A DNA stretch of 64,000 nt, taken from assembly GCF_900444995.1 (NCBI RefSeq), contig NZ_UAPQ01000009.1:124001-188000 (forward strand), written 5' to 3'. The notes under the pieces are model-generated. The model saw nothing but the letters and a program-made list of their open reading frames with translations. It was not told the origin of the DNA and did not search any database. Position numbers and translations under genes: made by a program. The DNA is from Actinomyces bovis (GTDB lineage Bacteria; Actinomycetota; Actinomycetes; Actinomycetales; Actinomycetaceae). Of the stretch, positions 69 through 31,748 are shown piece by piece (position 1 is the first letter of the stretch; the number at the start of each line of letters is the position of its first letter).

Positions 69-824
69 CTAACCCAGATGCTTTTGGAGCACCTGGAAGG
101 CCACAGCCACCACCAAAGCGTTGCAAAAGAAGGCGACCACCGAGTGCACTAGCACCACGCGCCGCACCCGGCGCGAACGCACAGCGACATCGGAGGTCGC
201 AAAAGAAGAACCTACGGTGAAGGAGAAGTAGAGGTAATCCGAAAGGAACGGCTCTGCGGTGCCGGGAAACTTTAAGAGGGGCTCGCTGGCAGTCAGGCAT
301 ATCGCCCGGTAGATGCCCGCAAAACCGACCTGCAGCAGTAACCAGGAAAGGATCACCCCCAGGCTGGAAGAGATCGCCAGGAAACTCGCCACGACGCCCT
401 GTACGCCGGACCGATCTACGCCCAGGGCGTGTATAGCGGTGACCACACCGGTTGCAGAGGCCAGCAGCGGCAGCACCCAACTCCGCCCCAGACCTTCCCG
501 GACCTGTCTGCGTTCTATCCGACTTTCTAGCTCACGCCCGCCCCAAACCCTGTGGGCACCCACAGTCAGGTAGAGCACGCCGAGCAGTTCCCAAATCAGC
601 AGCAGCAGGACAAAGCCGAAAAGGACAAAGGCCAGCGAGGTGGCCATGATGGCAAGCTCAAGCAGCCACTGTGCGAGTAGCCAGCCCTGCCGACGGCGTT
701 GGGCGTTGCTGGTTGCTGACGACGGCACTGACTCCTTGCTCACGCGCAGAGTATGCCCTAACCGGACGCTTGAACCCGCAGACGGCCAAACACTCAGGAG
801 GCCCTGACAGAAGCTGCGACCCAC
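69..824 (-). CDS. DUF1345 family membrane protein
   Basis: Small integral membrane protein of unknown function. The chain has several hydrophobic segments: one near residues 58-82 (ending in a WELLGVLYL-type stretch), a pair in the middle, and a C-terminal one. The part before the last segment reads YFSFTVGSSFATSDVAVRSR, which is the hallmark of the DUF1345 family, where an S-D-V pattern follows a membrane span. The start is uncertain. A GTG at 824 gives 251 residues, but the first 27 are not hydrophobic or conserved-looking, and the GTG at 743 gives a more typical length. It is transcribed divergently from the methyltransferase at 912. The family is seen; no biochemical role is known to me. 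Confidence 0.8.
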   Translation of the reverse strand: MGRSFCQGLLSVWPSAGSSVRLGHTLRVSKESVPSSATSNAQRRRQGWLLAQWLLELAIMATSLAFVLFGFVLLLLIWELLGVLYLTVGAHRVWGGRELESRIERRQVREGLGRSWVLPLLASATGVVTAIHALGVDRSGVQGVVASFLAISSSLGVILSWLLLQVGFAGIYRAICLTASEPLLKFPGTAEPFLSDYLYFSFTVGSSFATSDVAVRSRRVRRVVLVHSVVAFFCNALVVAVAFQVLQKHLG

Positions 825-911
825 CTCTAGACAGCAACGGTTTGGTCACAGGACCCAAACTTTGTGCTAACGCGCCTAGTGCGAACGAATGACTAACGTC
901 ACGATTGCCAT

Positions 912-1529
912 ATGACCATTGCGATGTCCTCCACCGCTGGCCTTGAGCAACCCCGCCTCAGTCAGGCCCGGAAGCTCACCTTGCCATCCTTCCGCATGGG
1001 CCGTGGCCGCATGCAGCGGTGGGCCTTGGACCTCGCCCAAATTGCTCAGAGCGACCGAGTGCTCAATATGGGCTGCCAGAGCGGTGGACTGGTGCGTCAG
1101 ATTATGCATCTGACATCTGGCCAGGTCGCTGCCGTTGACTGCAGCCTAGATGCCACTGAGTTGGTGCGGACGCTAAACCGTGCTGCCGTCGAGTCCGGCC
1201 GTCTCCGAGTCTCCGTGGGCACCAGCGGCATGCTCCCCTTCCGTTCCAGCGACTTTGATGTGGTCACGGCCCTAAATGCCGTGTCTCACTGGCCGAACCT
1301 GGGAACCGGCCTGCGCGAGATCCGTCGGGTACTGCGCAAGGGTGGCCGCCTGGTAATCGTCAATGAATACGCCTCTCAGGCTGAAGCCGAAAGATGGCGC
1401 CAGACACCGAAGTACCACGTCCCAGACGCAGACGAGATCATCGCTATCTGTCAGCGCATCGGCTTCCGTCGGGTTACCGCTGAACGCCACGAATCCAAAG
1501 GTTGGCTTGGCGTTGTGGCCTCTGACTGA
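912..1529 (+). CDS. class I SAM-dependent methyltransferase
   Basis: Predicted S-adenosylmethionine-dependent methyltransferase of the methyltransf_11 type. The first motif, which binds SAM, is present around residue 49 as VLNMGCQSGG. The usual acidic residue and second glycine of the D-x-G-C-G-x-G pattern are replaced by N and Q. The acidic end of strand 2 (VAAVDCS), the LPF-x-SxxFDVV motif and the LREIRRVLRKGGRLVIV motif are all intact, so the fold is secure while SAM affinity is uncertain. The substrate cannot be read from the sequence. The start may be the ATG at 912 or the one at 924; neither has a clear Shine-Dalgarno site. Confidence 0.8.
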   Translation: MTIAMSSTAGLEQPRLSQARKLTLPSFRMGRGRMQRWALDLAQIAQSDRVLNMGCQSGGLVRQIMHLTSGQVAAVDCSLDATELVRTLNRAAVESGRLRVSVGTSGMLPFRSSDFDVVTALNAVSHWPNLGTGLREIRRVLRKGGRLVIVNEYASQAEAERWRQTPKYHVPDADEIIAICQRIGFRRVTAERHESKGWLGVVASD

Positions 1530-1742: not shown

Positions 1743-3440
1743 GTGTCTGAGCAGTTGCAGCACCCCACTGAGCCCGCTGTCCCCAACGAGGTAGAGGCCA
1801 GCACCGTCGATCCCACCACCATGGCTGAGCCTCAGGCCCCTGAGGCGAGCACCGACGCCCCTACTTCGCAGGTTGCCGTTCCGGTGCCCCCCAGCTCGAA
1901 GTCGGCACCTTCTTCGCCCTCGTCTCCTTCAGCTAGCTCAGCTAAATCAGCTCCATCTGCAACTACTCCCGACGCCGCTGCTGCGCCTGCCGAGCCTGCA
2001 GAGACCCCTGAAGCGGCTAAGGCTGCTGAGACCAGCGAGGCCCCGGCGCCAGAAACTCCTGCCGAGCCCACAAAGGACGCCCCCACGCCTGCTGCCAAGG
2101 CAGAAGACACCAAGGTGGATGAGCCCAAGGCGGAGGTGCCAGTCCCCAGCCCCGCAACTGTGCCTACCCCCGTCGAGCCAGCCATCGACCCCGAGGAGGC
2201 CATGGACGCCGCCAAATGGGGCCGGGTAGACGGCGAAGGCAAGGTCTTTGTGCAGGACAACGGGGAAGAGCGTGAGGTTGGCCAGTTCCCTGACGCCCCA
2301 GTTGCTGAGGCCCTCGCCTTCTACGTGCGCCGCTTCCTGGATCTCAAAGCCAGCATCGACCTCTTTGCCACGCGCCTGCCGCAGCTCTCCGTGCGTGAAA
2401 TCGACTCCACCGTGAAGTCGCTCGAAGAATCACTGGTCTCCCCTGCCGCCGTCGGCGATCTGGATGGTTTGCGCGCACGCTTTGCCGCCCTACGGACCGT
2501 GGCCGCCGAGCGCCGCGAGGCGGTTTCAGCTGAGCGAGCCGCCGCCAAGGAGCAGGCCCTTAAGGACCGCACGGCCATCGTGGAGCGCGCTGAAGCAATC
2601 AGCGAGCAGGACCCCGCCCGCACCCAGTGGAAGACCTCCGGTGCAGAGCTGCGTGAACTGCTGGAGAAGTGGAAGGAGGCGCAGCGTCGTGGACCACGCC
2701 TGGACCGCCCCACCGAGGACGGCTTGTGGAAGCGTTTCTCTCACGCGCGCACTACCTTTGACCGGCACCGCCGTCAGTTCTTCTCCGAGTTGGACTCCAA
2801 GCAGTCTCAGGTGAAGGCCGCCAAGGAGGCCCTGATCCGCCGGGCGGAGGAGCTGTCTTCCTCCACCGACTGGGGCACTACTTCCGCCAAGTACCGCGAC
2901 CTTATGGAGGAGTGGAAGAAAGCTGGCCGGGCTTCCCGTAAAGAGGACGATGCCTTGTGGGCGCGCTTCCGGGCCGCCCAGCAGGTGTTCTTTGACGCTC
3001 GCCGGGCCAAGGACGAGGCCACCGACGCTGAGTTCGCCGAGAACCTGAAGGTCAAGGAGGCTCTGGTCGCCAAGGCTGAGGCTCTGCTTCCCATTAAGGA
3101 TGTCAAGGCTGCTAAGAAGGCTATGCGTCCGATTCAGGACGCTTGGGAAGAAGCCGGTCGGGTGCCGCGTGCCGCCGTGCGTCGCATTGAGGGACGCATG
3201 CGTGCCGTAGAGGACGCGATCCGTGAAGCGGAGAACGCCGAGTGGCGTCGCACCGATCCTGAGACCAAAGCTCGCGCTGAGGGCCTAGCTGGCCAGCTTG
3301 AGGACTCGATCGCTGAGCTGGAGAAGGATCTGGCTGCTGCACAGGCTGCCGGCAACGCCAAGAAGGTCGCGGAGGCGGAGGCTGCGCTCACTGCTCGCCG
3401 TGCTTGGCTGGAGCAGGTCCGCCAGTCGGCCCGCGCTTGA
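1743..3440 (+). CDS. DUF349 domain protein with acidic Pro/Ala-rich N-terminus
   Basis: Cytoplasmic helical protein of unknown function. Residues 1 to about 150 are a low-complexity Pro/Ala/Glu/Ser/Thr region with no cysteine. From about residue 270 onward come three DUF349 repeats (roughly 275-350, 355-425 and 430-505). Each has the W-K-x-A-G-R/W-E-E-A-G-R type helix with basic residues followed by LW-x-R-F. The C-terminal 60 residues are a charged coiled coil. The GTG start is chosen because AAAGGAG lies 7 bases upstream. DUF349 proteins are widespread in Actinomycetota, but I know of no firm function. The gene is monocistronic and followed by a hairpin. Confidence 0.88.
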   Translation: MSEQLQHPTEPAVPNEVEASTVDPTTMAEPQAPEASTDAPTSQVAVPVPPSSKSAPSSPSSPSASSAKSAPSATTPDAAAAPAEPAETPEAAKAAETSEAPAPETPAEPTKDAPTPAAKAEDTKVDEPKAEVPVPSPATVPTPVEPAIDPEEAMDAAKWGRVDGEGKVFVQDNGEEREVGQFPDAPVAEALAFYVRRFLDLKASIDLFATRLPQLSVREIDSTVKSLEESLVSPAAVGDLDGLRARFAALRTVAAERREAVSAERAAAKEQALKDRTAIVERAEAISEQDPARTQWKTSGAELRELLEKWKEAQRRGPRLDRPTEDGLWKRFSHARTTFDRHRRQFFSELDSKQSQVKAAKEALIRRAEELSSSTDWGTTSAKYRDLMEEWKKAGRASRKEDDALWARFRAAQQVFFDARRAKDEATDAEFAENLKVKEALVAKAEALLPIKDVKAAKKAMRPIQDAWEEAGRVPRAAVRRIEGRMRAVEDAIREAENAEWRRTDPETKARAEGLAGQLEDSIAELEKDLAAAQAAGNAKKVAEAEAALTARRAWLEQVRQSARA

Positions 3441-3447
3441 TCGCGGT

Positions 3448-3479
3448 GCGCGCAGTTAGCTCTCCCCTAAACTGCGCGC
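3448..3479 (+). terminator. hairpin after the DUF349 gene
   Basis: A perfect 10-bp stem (3448-3457 with 3470-3479, GCGCGCAGTT/AACTGCGCGC) has a 12-base loop and begins 7 bases after the stop codon. There is no long T-run, as is common for high-GC actinobacterial terminators. Confidence 0.6.
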
Positions 3480-3497
3480 CTTAGCCAAAGGCACCTG

Positions 3498-3530
3498 CCG
3501 CACCGTCACTCCTTCTGAGTGGCGGTGCGG
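3498..3530. terminator. bidirectional hairpin overlapping the 3' end of the AbiEi-like gene
   Basis: A 13-bp stem with one wobble pair (3498-3510 with 3518-3530) has a 7-base loop. It covers the last codons and stop of the minus-strand gene ending at 3506, and faces the convergent DUF349 gene. It can serve both strands. Confidence 0.55.
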
Positions 3531-4162
3531 TCTGGTTTCCGGCGCCCGGTCCCCAAATAGCGCCGCAGAGCAGGCTCGCCATAGAGCTCACGGATCAGCC
3601 GTTCCACCCGGTCGCGACCACGCACCTGTGCCCCCACACAGTGGGAAACACAGTTGTAAAGCTCCTGAGGCTTGATGCCAGCGTGCTGCGCAGCCAACAG
3701 GGCCTCCACTGCGCGCGCAGCTGTGTCCAGGCGCGCTACGTCTACGGCTGCCCGCGCCAAAGTGCAACAGGACAGTCCTCCAACCAGCATCACGTCTGAG
3801 GCCGGCAGCCGCCCCTGGCACATGCGCAGCCGAGCAGCCCGGCCAGTATGCACCGGCCGGATGGCTTCAAGCACTTCAGGTGGACGCAGTCCGGTGTGCA
3901 CCCACAAGGCACTGGCACCGTAAATCGACGCCCCGTCCGGAAGGAAGCTTCTCAGGCAGCGGGCCCGGGCACCAGGCGTAGAAACCTGCTCTAAAACCAT
4001 CGCCTGGCCAAGTACTGACACGGTGAGTTCCTCGTCCAATCCGTGGCAGCGCAACACACCTAGTTCCGCAGGCGTCAGTTCACGGGTGGCAGGCTGCAGG
4101 GGCCGCCTCTCCAACCAAGCCAGGGCGGCCATGGTGCGCTGTGGGCGGCGTCTAGTTTCCAT
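3506..4162 (-). CDS. AbiEi/DUF559-like hypothetical protein
   Basis: Function unknown. Residues 80-140 follow the layout of actinobacterial proteins related to AbiEi antitoxins and their DUF559 relatives. A segment resembling SALWVHTG is followed by a basic RMCQGRLPASDVMLVGGL stretch, then TLARAAVDVARLDT, which is the conserved helix where such proteins read T-x-x-R-T-A-V-D-x-A-R. No AbiEii-type nucleotidyltransferase toxin is next to it; the neighbours are the DUF349 gene (convergent) and rel (same strand, about 50 bases downstream of rel). It may therefore be an orphan. The C-terminus is basic (RRYLGTGRRK). The similarity is recognised by eye only, so the family call is tentative. Confidence 0.5.
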   Translation of the reverse strand: METRRRPQRTMAALAWLERRPLQPATRELTPAELGVLRCHGLDEELTVSVLGQAMVLEQVSTPGARARCLRSFLPDGASIYGASALWVHTGLRPPEVLEAIRPVHTGRAARLRMCQGRLPASDVMLVGGLSCCTLARAAVDVARLDTAARAVEALLAAQHAGIKPQELYNCVSHCVGAQVRGRDRVERLIRELYGEPALRRYLGTGRRKPDRTATQKE

Positions 4163-28194: not shown

Positions 28195-29073
28195 TCAGTG
28201 CACGGTGAAGCCGTGGGAGCGGAAGATCGCCCTGGTGGACTCCACGAGTTCTGGCTCAGGCGGCCTGGTTTCCCGCAGCTTGTAGTCCAGGCCTAAGCTG
28301 CCCCACTTGTCGGTGCCCATCTGGTGGAAAGGGAGTACCTCCACACGAGTCACAGATGAACGCCAGCGCTCGATGATGCGCGCCACCTGTTCCACATTCT
28401 CGGGGGCGTCGGTCAGGCCGGGCACCAGCACGAAACGCGCCCAGATCTCAATACCCTTGGCGGCCAGCCGGTCTCCGAAGGCGATGGTCGGGGCAAGTTC
28501 ACGGCCGGTGACCTGCTTGTAGGTGTCCTCGTTGCCGCTTTTGACGTCTAGGAGCACTAGGTCAATGTCGTCGAGCATCTTGTCGGTGCAGTTGACCCCC
28601 AGAAAACCGGAGGTGTCAATGCAGGTGTGGATGCCCATCTCCTTGGCGCCGCGCAGCAAGCGCGCTGCGAAGGCTGGCTGCATGAGCACCTCGCCACCAG
28701 AGAGCGTGATCCCTCCACCGGAAGCGCGAAAAACACCCCGGTAGCGCTTCATGCGCCGCAGCAGCTCATCTGCAGAGATGGGCTCGCCGTCCTTCATGAG
28801 GAAGGTGTCCGGGTTGTGGCAGTACAGGCAGCGAAGAGGGCAACCGTTCAGAAAAACAGTCATCCTCGTGCCGGGACCGTCTACGGCTGTCACCAACTCC
28901 CAGGAGTGGATCGAGCCGAGGGTACCTTCGCGCATTCGCGCCAACCGCTCTGAGCGTTGAATATCTGTGAGCTCCTCGAGCCCACCGGTTCCCGCCCCGC
29001 GCAAGCGGGCGGCCGGGGCCAGAAAGTCCTGGTCCCGGCCGCCCGTCACGTCGGGGGTGATGGTCTCAGTCAT
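28195..29073 (-). CDS. pflA: pyruvate formate-lyase activating enzyme
   Basis: Radical-SAM enzyme that abstracts a hydrogen from the active-site glycine of pyruvate formate-lyase. The 4Fe-4S motif C-x3-C-x2-C is GCPLRCLYCHNPDTF (about residues 78-92), followed by a GGG-type SAM segment (GGGITLSGGEVLMQP). The length of 292 residues is slightly long because of a 35-residue N-terminal extension. It lies 23 bases after the separate glycyl-radical gene and is in the same transcription unit as pflB. Confidence 0.95.
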   Translation of the reverse strand: MTETITPDVTGGRDQDFLAPAARLRGAGTGGLEELTDIQRSERLARMREGTLGSIHSWELVTAVDGPGTRMTVFLNGCPLRCLYCHNPDTFLMKDGEPISADELLRRMKRYRGVFRASGGGITLSGGEVLMQPAFAARLLRGAKEMGIHTCIDTSGFLGVNCTDKMLDDIDLVLLDVKSGNEDTYKQVTGRELAPTIAFGDRLAAKGIEIWARFVLVPGLTDAPENVEQVARIIERWRSSVTRVEVLPFHQMGTDKWGSLGLDYKLRETRPPEPELVESTRAIFRSHGFTVH

Positions 29074-29096: not shown

Positions 29097-29345
29097 TCAG
29101 GCGCCAGCGTGGAAGGTGCGGTTTAGCACGTCAAGCTGCTGCTCACGAGTCAGCTTGACGAAGTTCACCGCGTAGCCGGAGACGCGAACGGTGAGGTTCG
29201 GGTAGTTCTCCGGGTGCGCCATAGCGTCCTCAAGGGTGGTGCGGTCCAGGACATTGATGTTGGCGTGGTACAGGCCCTTAACGCCGCCATTGTCCGCGCG
29301 CTGAGCCTTCATCGAGGCAAGGCGCTCTTCGTAGGTGGTAGCCAT
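29097..29345 (-). CDS. grcA: stand-alone glycyl-radical domain of pyruvate formate-lyase
   Basis: An 82-residue protein equal to the C-terminal radical loop of pyruvate formate-lyase: [20 protein letters not shown], then [19 protein letters not shown], where Gly57 is the radical site. A 26-residue basic N-terminal extension precedes it. It resembles the autonomous radical cofactor GrcA (YfiD) of E. coli. In E. coli GrcA repairs an oxygen-cleaved PFL that has its own radical domain. Here the adjacent PflB lacks that domain, so this protein is predicted to be an essential subunit rather than a spare part. It has its own Shine-Dalgarno sequence (AAAGGG, 8 bases before ATG) and lies between pflB and pflA. 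Confidence 0.92.
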
Positions 29346-29401
29346 AATGGCACCCTTTCTAGTTGTGTGAAATGAGATGTGACAGGTGGTCCGGGGTGGA
29401 C

Positions 29402-31525
29402 TCAGACGTCAGCGCAGTCCTCAGGGACGAAGCCGGCGTCGAGGATGCCCACCAGGTTGGCGACCCGCTCATCGAGCGTGCGGCCCAGGCCCTGGGGCGT
29501 GATGGTGTTGGTCAAAGAGATGCCGTCTAGCGCGTCGTTGTAGTCGAGCTTGCCCACGGACAGCATGGAGGCAACCATGCCGTGCGTGTCCATGCCGTTC
29601 TCCGGGTTCGCACCCGGGGAGAAGGGGGTGCCCTTCTGGTGGCCGGAGGGGAAGGAACCGGTGGCCTTGCCGTACACCACGTTGGAGGTGATGGTCAGCA
29701 CCGACTGAGTCGGGATGGCGTCACGGTAGAAAGGCTGCGCCTTGATCTTGGACATGATCGTGTGCACCACGGTCGCGGCGATCTCGTCAGCGCGGTCGTC
29801 GTCGTTGCCGTAGATCGGGAACTCGCCTTCGGTGACGTAGTCGACCACCAGGCCGGTCTCGTCACGTACGGGGGTGACCTTGGCGTACTTGATGGCGGAC
29901 AGGGAGTCGGCAACGATCGACAGACCAGCGATACCGCAGCCCATGGTGCGGATGATGTCGGAGTCGTGCAGTGCCATCTCGATGGCCTCGTAGGCGTAGC
30001 GGTCGTGGCAGTAGTGGATGATGTTGAGGGCCTCAACGTAGGTGCCCACCACCCAGTCCAGCATGTCCTCGTACTTGGCCCAGACCTCGTCGAAGTCCAG
30101 CGGGCCATCGCCCTCAATGCCTGGCAGGCCAGTGACGATCTGCTTGCCACTCATCTCGTCACGGCCACCGTTGATGGCGTAGAGGAGAGCCTTGGCAGAG
30201 TTCACGCGGGCACCGAAGAACTGCATCTGCTTGCCTACACGCATCGGGGAAACACAGCAGGCAATGGCGGCGTCGTCGCCCCAGTGGTCACGGATCTGCT
30301 CGTCAGCCTCGTACTGGATGGAGGAGGTCGTGATGGAGATCAGCGCACAGAAGTCCTTGTAGCCCTGCGGCAGCTTCTCGTCCCAGAAGATCGTGATATT
30401 CGGCTCGGGGGCGGGACCGAGGTTCCGCAGGGTCTGCAGTAGCCGGAAGGAGGTCTTGGTGACCTGGGAGCGGCCGTCCTCACTGAAGCCAGCGTCAGAC
30501 CAGGTGGCCCAGTAGGGGTCACCGGAGAAGATCTGGTCGTAGTCAGTGGTGCGCAGGAAGCGGGTGATACGCAGCTTCATGACGATGTTGTCGATGAGCT
30601 CCTGGGCGCGGGTCTCATCGATAATGCCCGCCTTGAGGTCGCGCTCAAAGTAAATGTCCAGGAAGGCGGAAAGACGGCCGATGGACATGGCAGCGCCGTC
30701 CTGGGACTTCACAGAGGCCAGGTAGGCGAAGTAGGTCCACTGCACAGCCTCGTGCGCGTCCTTGGCGGGGCCGGAGATGTCGAAGCCGTAGGACTCGGCC
30801 ATCACCTTGAGCTTCTTGAGGGCCTTGATCTGCTCGGAGTGCTCCTCACGGAATCGGGCCCAGTGCTCGGAGAAGCCCTGCGAGGCCACGGAGTCCTTGG
30901 CCTTCTCTTTCTCGGCGATCAGGAAGTCGACGCCGTAGAGGGCCACGCGGCGGTAGTCACCGATGATGCGGCCACGGCCGTAGGCGTCCGGAAGGCCGGT
31001 GATGATATGCGAAGAACGGGCAGCACGAATGCGCGGGGTGTAGATGTCGAAGACGGCGTCGTTGTGGGTCTTGCGGTACTTCGTGAAGATCTTCTTGACC
31101 TCGGGGTTGACCTCTTTACCGGCCTCCTTGATGGCCTGCTCAACCATGCGCCAGCCACCGTTGGGCATCATGGCGCGCTTGAGCGGGGAGTCAGTCTGCA
31201 GGCCGACGATCACATCATCGGACTCGGAGATGTAGCCGGGCTTGAAGGCGTCGATGTCCGAGGGGGTGTCGGTGTCGACATCAAGGATACGGACCTTGCG
31301 CTCCTCTTTGAGGAAGTTGTCCTCAAGGGTCTGCCACAGTCCCAGGGTCTTCTCAGTGGCGCCAGCAAGGAAGGAGGCGTCGCCGTCGTAAGGGGTGTAG
31401 TTGCGCTGGATGAAGTCGCGAACATCAATGTCCTCGGCCCACGGGCCCTTGGTGAAGCCCTCCCAAGCGTCCTCGCGAGTGCTGCTGCGCTCCGCGCTGG
31501 CGGAAGCTGTGACCTCAGTGGTCAT
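29402..31525 (-). CDS. pflB: pyruvate formate-lyase catalytic subunit without glycyl-radical domain
   Basis: Converts pyruvate and CoA to acetyl-CoA and formate in anaerobic fermentation. The two active cysteines are Cys423 and Cys424 in [19 protein letters not shown]. Other conserved stretches are the [14 protein letters not shown] region, the [22 protein letters not shown] helix and [15 protein letters not shown]. The chain ends at [17 protein letters not shown], just before the point where the usual enzyme continues into the radical loop, giving 707 residues against about 760 in E. coli. The missing part is encoded by the next gene. The ATG at 31525 has GGAGGG 5 bases upstream; the longer frame to 31738 has no homologous N-terminus. 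Confidence 0.95.
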
Positions 31526-31631: not shown

Positions 31632-31748
31632 CTTGGTCCGTGTCCGCTTTCCCTGCCTATCGATCCGGTGTTCTCACTCACAGCCCTAATAGGCACACTC
31701 AAGGCAGGGACCAAAGTCCATGCCGTGGTGAGGACCAAAGGTCACCAC
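31632..31748. promoter_or_regulatory. repeated GGACCAAAG sites and inverted repeat upstream of pflB
   Basis: The 225 bases between dxs and pflB contain GGACCAAAG at 31708-31716 and again at 31732-31740, exactly 24 bases apart, plus an 8-base opposite-strand copy at 31632-31639. The second copy lies within a perfect inverted repeat (GTGGTGA at 31725-31731 and TCACCAC at 31742-31748, 10-base spacer), and the first is centred on GGAC-CAAA-GTCC. These look like regulator sites for the anaerobic operon, or in part a weak terminator of dxs. Confidence 0.4.

Follow-up and report, generated by a model that had tools for sequence, protein, structure and literature searches.

A pyruvate formate-lyase of Actinomyces bovis probably assembled from separate catalytic and glycyl-radical subunits

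How a pyruvate formate-lyase (PFL) can work when its chain ends before the domain that carries the glycyl radical is the question raised by a locus of Actinomyces bovis, located on the minus strand of a window of 64,000 nucleotides (the whole stretch of DNA analysed). Three genes follow one another there, pflB, an 82-codon gene and pflA. The first (29402..31525) encodes a catalytic subunit of 707 amino acids that passes the PFL profile TIGR01255 narrowly (997.6 bits vs a cut-off of 994.2, covering profile positions 1-681 of 744), the glycyl-radical domain being absent from this polypeptide and carried on the separate gene. Its predicted catalytic cysteine pair, Cys423-Cys424 (codons 30254..30259), lies in the motif IACCVS, which aligns with ACCVS of PDB 38lb, and would be the equivalent of C418/C419 of the E. 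coli enzyme. The PflB stop is followed by 56 intergenic nucleotides (29346..29401) holding a brief match to the Shine-Dalgarno sequence (AAGG), placed 8 nt 5' of the ATG of the small gene (29097..29345), which is read in a different frame. The encoded subunit of 82 amino acids is a glycyl-radical domain of the NCBIfam family GrcA2 (NF008341, 163.9 bits vs a cut-off of 145), and it fails the GrcA/YfiD profile TIGR04365 (84 bits vs a cut-off of 170). Its predicted radical site, Gly57 (codon 29175..29177) in RVSGYAVNF, is invariant in an alignment of 45 rows, and its residues 1-23 (29277..29345) form an N-terminal extension that one-chain PFLs lack, with a helix predicted at residues 5-18 (mean pLDDT of the model 71.7). 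Further downstream, pflA (28195..29073) encodes the PFL-activating radical SAM enzyme of 292 amino acids, with the cysteine motif CX3CX2C in the form CPLRCLYC and a TIGR02493 score of 299.4 bits, above the NCBIfam cut-off of 231.75. Rechecked on the sequence, the coordinates, lengths, Cys423-Cys424 and Gly57 are all as given in the preliminary description, which had likewise correctly placed the small gene 56 bases downstream with its own Shine-Dalgarno sequence, pflA behind it, and a stop codon of the small-gene frame just inside the end of pflB.

Aligned with E. coli PFL, residues 18-700 of PflB match residues 8-694, so that the chain indeed stops before the radical loop, as had been described, and residues 20-79 of the small protein match residues 697-756; the latter also matches YfiD 67-124. 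Taken together, the two matches make up one PFL, cut at about residue 695. On this gene anatomy the operon very probably encodes an obligate two-subunit pyruvate formate-lyase of which the radical subunit is a permanent part. PflB would provide the barrel and the cysteine pair, being without the glycine loop that bears the radical, and the 82-residue protein would dock where the C-terminal domain is missing. PflA would then place the radical on Gly57 of the small subunit, from which it would move on to the cysteine pair of PflB for the cleavage of pyruvate. The helical N-terminal extension is probably an anchor on PflB in place of the lost covalent link.

The narrow pass of TIGR01255 could be taken to mean that the large subunit belongs to a related glycyl radical enzyme (GRE) with a different 2-keto acid as substrate, and not to a PFL. 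The score is, however, lowered by the last 63 profile positions, which are missing from the chain, and the best relatives in the PDB are PFLs at 803 to 882 bits, with other GREs below 90 bits. The adjoining pflA and the formate release of A. naeslundii point the same way, making another substrate improbable. For A. naeslundii, formate release is described in PMC6493303 and PMC10715109, and the genome taken as A. naeslundii NCTC 10301 (G026; the named A. naeslundii locus is L126) holds a split PFL only, although the strains in the formate papers differ from the sequenced one and the formate could come from other sources.

Could pflB simply be broken, as a pseudogene or through an assembly error? 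Beyond the interrupted frame itself nothing suggests so, and the idea is practically out of the question given the conservation of the split in related species, where the preliminary description had suggested looking. The nearest named relatives belong to Actinomyces (PflB is 93% identical to that of A. oris), and each of the 37 genus genomes studied (the window's own is one of them) has the pflB stop and a separate downstream radical-domain gene; three further genus genomes (G165, G183, G199) gave partial matches only and stand outside the 37. The split is not a chance event, since all 37 share it. In the same genomes the small gene has a pN/pS of 0.142 overall, its radical domain one of 0.087 and its N-terminal extension one of 0.182, values at odds with decay. 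Conservation thus rules out both pseudogene and assembly error. As a side observation, 5 of the 37 genomes have a further near-complete radical-domain match, which at one locus (L005, 1444-3315, minus strand) belongs to what looks by eye like a PFL2-like enzyme, followed by an ORF (729-1397, minus strand) resembling, also by eye, fructose-6-phosphate aldolase.

The split extends to many other genera of Actinomycetota. In the GTDB family all 40 loci from 19 other genera are split, a figure that is not a rate because these loci were picked for a partial radical-domain match; one-chain PFLs occur in other genera of this family, and no match was obtained from 16 of 151 genomes. Among named loci found with the small protein, the best 80 of at least 568 confirmed comprise 54 split, 25 one-chain and 1 fused (L151), another result that speaks against a broken gene. 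The split loci of these 80 come from Actinomyces, Schaalia, Trueperella, Actinotignum, Varibaculum, Corynebacterium, Propionibacterium, Dermabacter, Brachybacterium, Helcobacillus, Pseudactinotalea, [Zimmermannella] and metagenome-assembled genomes, and the one-chain loci from Sanguibacter, Cellulomonas, Rarobacter, Tessaracoccus, Bifidobacterium, an uncultured actinobacterium (1) and Oscillospiraceae (1). Sixteen Bifidobacterium-type loci likewise have one-chain frames. The PflA cysteine motif, tested as a motif only, is found no more than 1.5 kb downstream at 93 of the 97 Actinomycete loci; among the remaining four, L101 and L134 are at contig ends and L137 and L149 show none. Two genera, g41 and g53 (noted at loci L090 and L101), mix split members (G078, G153) with one-chain ones, a hint of gene exchange or, in the case of G153 (fragmented and 76% complete), of contamination.

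Another reading would be to regard the small protein as a spare part like E. coli GrcA, with a complete PFL made by frameshifting or stop-codon readthrough at the junction. The family name, "autonomous glycyl radical cofactor GrcA2", favours a spare part, and at 37 of 131 Actinomycete junctions the two genes share a frame. A spare part of the GrcA type, however, presupposes a PFL that carries a radical domain itself, and the only PFL of this genome is without one. The whole genome (12 contigs; completeness 99.97%) gave a single PF02901 match and two PF01228 matches, which cover profile positions 1-65 (in pflB) and 64-106 (in the small gene). These two halves, with the lone PF02901 match, indicate a single divided radical domain and no further PFL. 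Searches of all contigs with PF02901 and PF01228, and with TIGR01255, thus found no other PFL, in particular no second full-length one, which the preliminary description had named as the finding that would undo its reading. The TIGR01255 search was extended to 79 of the 99 split genomes available (37 of the genus, 20 of the family, 21 of a second group described below, and G336), and in none of the 79 does a PFL match extend into the radical domain within a single open frame. Of the 744 profile positions, the best match stops at 679-702 in 58 genomes and at 665-670 in 21, six of the 79 best alignments crossing a stop codon; the remaining matches among those listed are separate radical-domain genes or weaker GREs, at 175 bits or less. 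A hidden full-length PFL is ruled out by these whole-genome and 79-genome searches.

Recoding fares no better at the junction itself. The statistics cover 133 Actinomycete loci, 131 of which have a stop before the small-gene ATG. Relative to pflB, the small gene occurs in all three frames (57/37/37 loci), the gaps between the genes have a median of 63 nt and range from -1 to 219 nt, and each of the three stop codons is used, a variety for which a common recoding signal is implausible; the window's own two genes are in different frames, as are the two overlapping genes of L137. Since all three relative frames occur among the 131 loci, recoding is excluded, which bears out the earlier judgement that a simple frameshift does not explain the locus. 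Small genes also have their own ATG, and 127 of 132 are preceded by a Shine-Dalgarno match of at least 4 nt, although 54 of these are just 4 nt long and the count stands without a shuffled control. A continuous frame across the junction, the other result that would have told against the split, was found in none of the 37 genus genomes examined, each having a stop between the genes. Open frames of 837-916 amino acids spanning both genes in some genus genomes were considered as natural fusions and rejected, a stop lying between the genes in each. A spare part serving an intact PFL is in sum very improbable.

What distinguishes the split loci instead is the small gene's added N-terminus. In one-chain relatives the junction runs on uninterrupted; in split ones a variable tail and a stop are followed by a methionine and an extension before the radical-domain sequence. 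Scored from an ATG sought 15-28 codons upstream of GLYH, the extension is 22-27 residues long and contains a Y/F-x-E/D-R-x-x-x-M-like motif in all 132 Actinomycete small genes, the fused L151 counted; it is absent from the one-chain tails compared. A structure model of the natural fusion has a mean pLDDT of 57, too low for docking. In that fusion (L151, 1684-4092, Corynebacterium sp. Marseille-P4321) the junction is without a stop and a single frame of 803 amino acids keeps the extension and the internal start inside it. Because it keeps these features and is nested among split Corynebacterium in the tree, L151 is read from its sequence as a secondary fusion by stop-codon loss, unless a sequencing error is responsible.

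Precedents for a detached radical subunit exist in E. coli. Cleavage of PFL by oxygen is known to occur at the radical glycine (PMC8683613), and damage in the two-subunit enzyme would for this reason be confined to the 82-residue subunit; a damaged copy could probably be swapped out, PflB not having to be remade. PMC8683613 describes an artificial truncated PFL, tPFL (residues 1-695), and the natural cut, between E. coli residues 694 and 697, is in the same place. Activated tPFL-YfiD complexes have a wild-type-like kcat, but their binding was too weak to measure and activation was 32-fold below that of cleaved PFL, rising 5.4-fold when YfiD residues 1-60 were removed (PMC8683613). From the weak binding and low activation, a bare split appears to work badly without adaptation. 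In vivo, radical-dead E. coli PflB G734A gives formate at an intermediate level with GrcA and none without it (PMC12338860). A separate radical subunit is therefore workable both in vitro and in vivo, and dependence of PflB on its small subunit would follow from this precedent (PMC8683613, PMC12338860) together with the gene anatomy.

A split of this kind is not confined to one lineage. Surveys covered Actinomycetota and a Bacillota phylum. In the first, 66 of 396 genomes had a match to the small-subunit family, and separate PFL-type radical-domain genes occur in 21 genomes of two other families (f35 and f56, probably Coriobacteriia), all 21 fetched loci being split; in the same draw the Actinomycete-type split occurs in the window's genome and in G336, whereas six genomes gave PFL-type matches of the one-chain form, four of them checked (L223-L226). 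PflB of the second group terminates in LGK plus a tail, and the small gene starts before NLVxMxDxY. At L204, PflB matches E. coli PFL 9-681 and the small protein 683-759, and the cut of this group lies 13-14 residues upstream of the Actinomycete one. The L204 small protein, the sole second-group subunit scanned, belongs to NCBIfam GrcA3 (166.5 bits vs a cut-off of 158), and 12 of the 21 loci have the pflA motif no more than 1.5 kb away. The second-group large subunits (L201-L220, L222) often end Cys-rich, for example in NPDCGCC.

Clade tests were run on 35 of 103 tree rows. They reject a grouping of all split PflBs in one clade (p-AU 0.00016) but do not reject a clade of the Actinomycete splits (p-AU 0.22), and one-chain rows of Cellulomonas, Bifidobacterium and Tessaracoccus fall among the Actinomycete split rows with weak support. 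With a common origin of both splits rejected, the sequences indicate that the PFL split arose at least twice, with different cut sites. In the Bacillota phylum (398 genomes, 136 with a match) there is one split PFL (G818), of the second kind; the other three short frames are two fragments of one-chain PFLs and one dehydratase-type GRE. A dehydratase-type GRE of a Bacillota genome (L261, 973-3270) has its radical domain on a separate ORF 89 nt downstream (3360-3620), preceded by the Shine-Dalgarno-like AAAGGGGGTGAA, and is a possible split GRE outside PFL. Free-standing GrcA3-type small genes were also seen on three viral contigs (L078, 3001-3237; L079; L080), with no pflB motif upstream within the sequence examined; that of L078 barely reaches the GrcA3 cut-off (158.1 vs 158).

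Granted that the two-subunit enzyme is real, the split may still be a neutral gene fission, the extension just compensating for the lost linkage. The rarity of the GrcA3-type split in Bacillota, at the single genome above, fits such a history, as does the lineage of L151, which re-fused. On the other hand, the fission arose two or more times, at cut sites that differ, and freed the radical domain each time; it has been retained in several families; and the cut isolates exactly the oxygen-labile part. Neutral fission seems to us possible, if rather doubtful. The fuller proposal is that the radical resides permanently on a disposable small subunit, that GrcA2 and GrcA3 proteins are catalytic subunits of obligate two-subunit PFLs and not repair proteins, and that this solution to oxygen sensitivity evolved at least twice and, going by the one dehydratase-type example (L261), also outside PFL; taken as a whole, it has about an even chance of being right.

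Upstream of the operon, a DosR-like palindrome, TGGACTTTGGTCCC, lies at 31707-31720 of the window, about 195 nt from pflB, and recurs in nearly the same place at L123, L126 and L127 (Actinomyces) and is absent at L121 and L128. It was matched against the DosR consensus. Sites of that strength occur at 24 of 71 pfl loci, one-chain loci included, vs 3.3% of letter-shuffled controls that do not keep dinucleotides, which hints at hypoxia control of pfl.

If the two-subunit reading is right, what serves for repair in E. coli would be the regular arrangement of an enzyme central to fermentation in Actinomyces, Corynebacterium and a wide range of further Actinomycetota, and the GrcA2 and GrcA3 families would appear to be misnamed. 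The natural pairs would bear on an open question, the recognition and activation of a detached glycyl-radical subunit. Both regions important for complex formation in E. coli, PFL residues 696-733 and YfiD 1-60 (PMC8683613), are missing from their places here. The pairs may also be a guide to more oxygen-robust PFL designs. The components are already on record: the small proteins are named in NCBIfam, though after a repair protein, and putative large-subunit structures are in the PDB. No paper on a natural split PFL was found in the literature searched, where thin coverage of subscription journals and preprints makes this weak evidence of absence, and the available part of PMC11528403 does not mention GrcA.

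Among known systems, the one-chain PFL (E. coli PflB, TIGR01255; PDB 1h16) shares the barrel, cysteine pair, RVSGYA loop and activating enzyme, the difference here being that the C-terminal radical domain forms a polypeptide of its own, lengthened by an N-terminal extension. Like the small subunit, E. coli GrcA/YfiD (TIGR04365; PDB 6owr) is a free-standing glycyl-radical domain, and the small-subunit model is 52% identical to it over 58 aligned residues; GrcA, however, serves a PFL that includes a radical domain, and no such PFL is present here. The YfiD N-terminus consists of 60 disordered residues (PMC8683613), whereas that of the small subunit is short, conserved and predicted to be helical. 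The names of NCBIfam GrcA2 (NF008341) and GrcA3 (NF038360) imply autonomous spare parts, yet in the examined genomes these proteins adjoin PFLs without a radical domain. The artificial pair of tPFL and truncated YfiD (PMC8683613) is cut in the same place and competent once activated; that pair is engineered and binds poorly, and the natural small subunit has its own extension replacing the YfiD 1-60 region. In a 2026 copy of the PDB, two entries named "Formate acetyltransferase", 38la and 38lb (687 and 739 residues; known by name, length and alignment), are among the closest solved relatives and resemble the second split group more than they do the window's PflB. Neither is matched by the small-subunit query of the window or of the second group, and the C-terminal tail of 38lb is like that of the second group. 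On these sequence grounds both are very probably large subunits of split PFLs, so that such subunits have probably been solved already.
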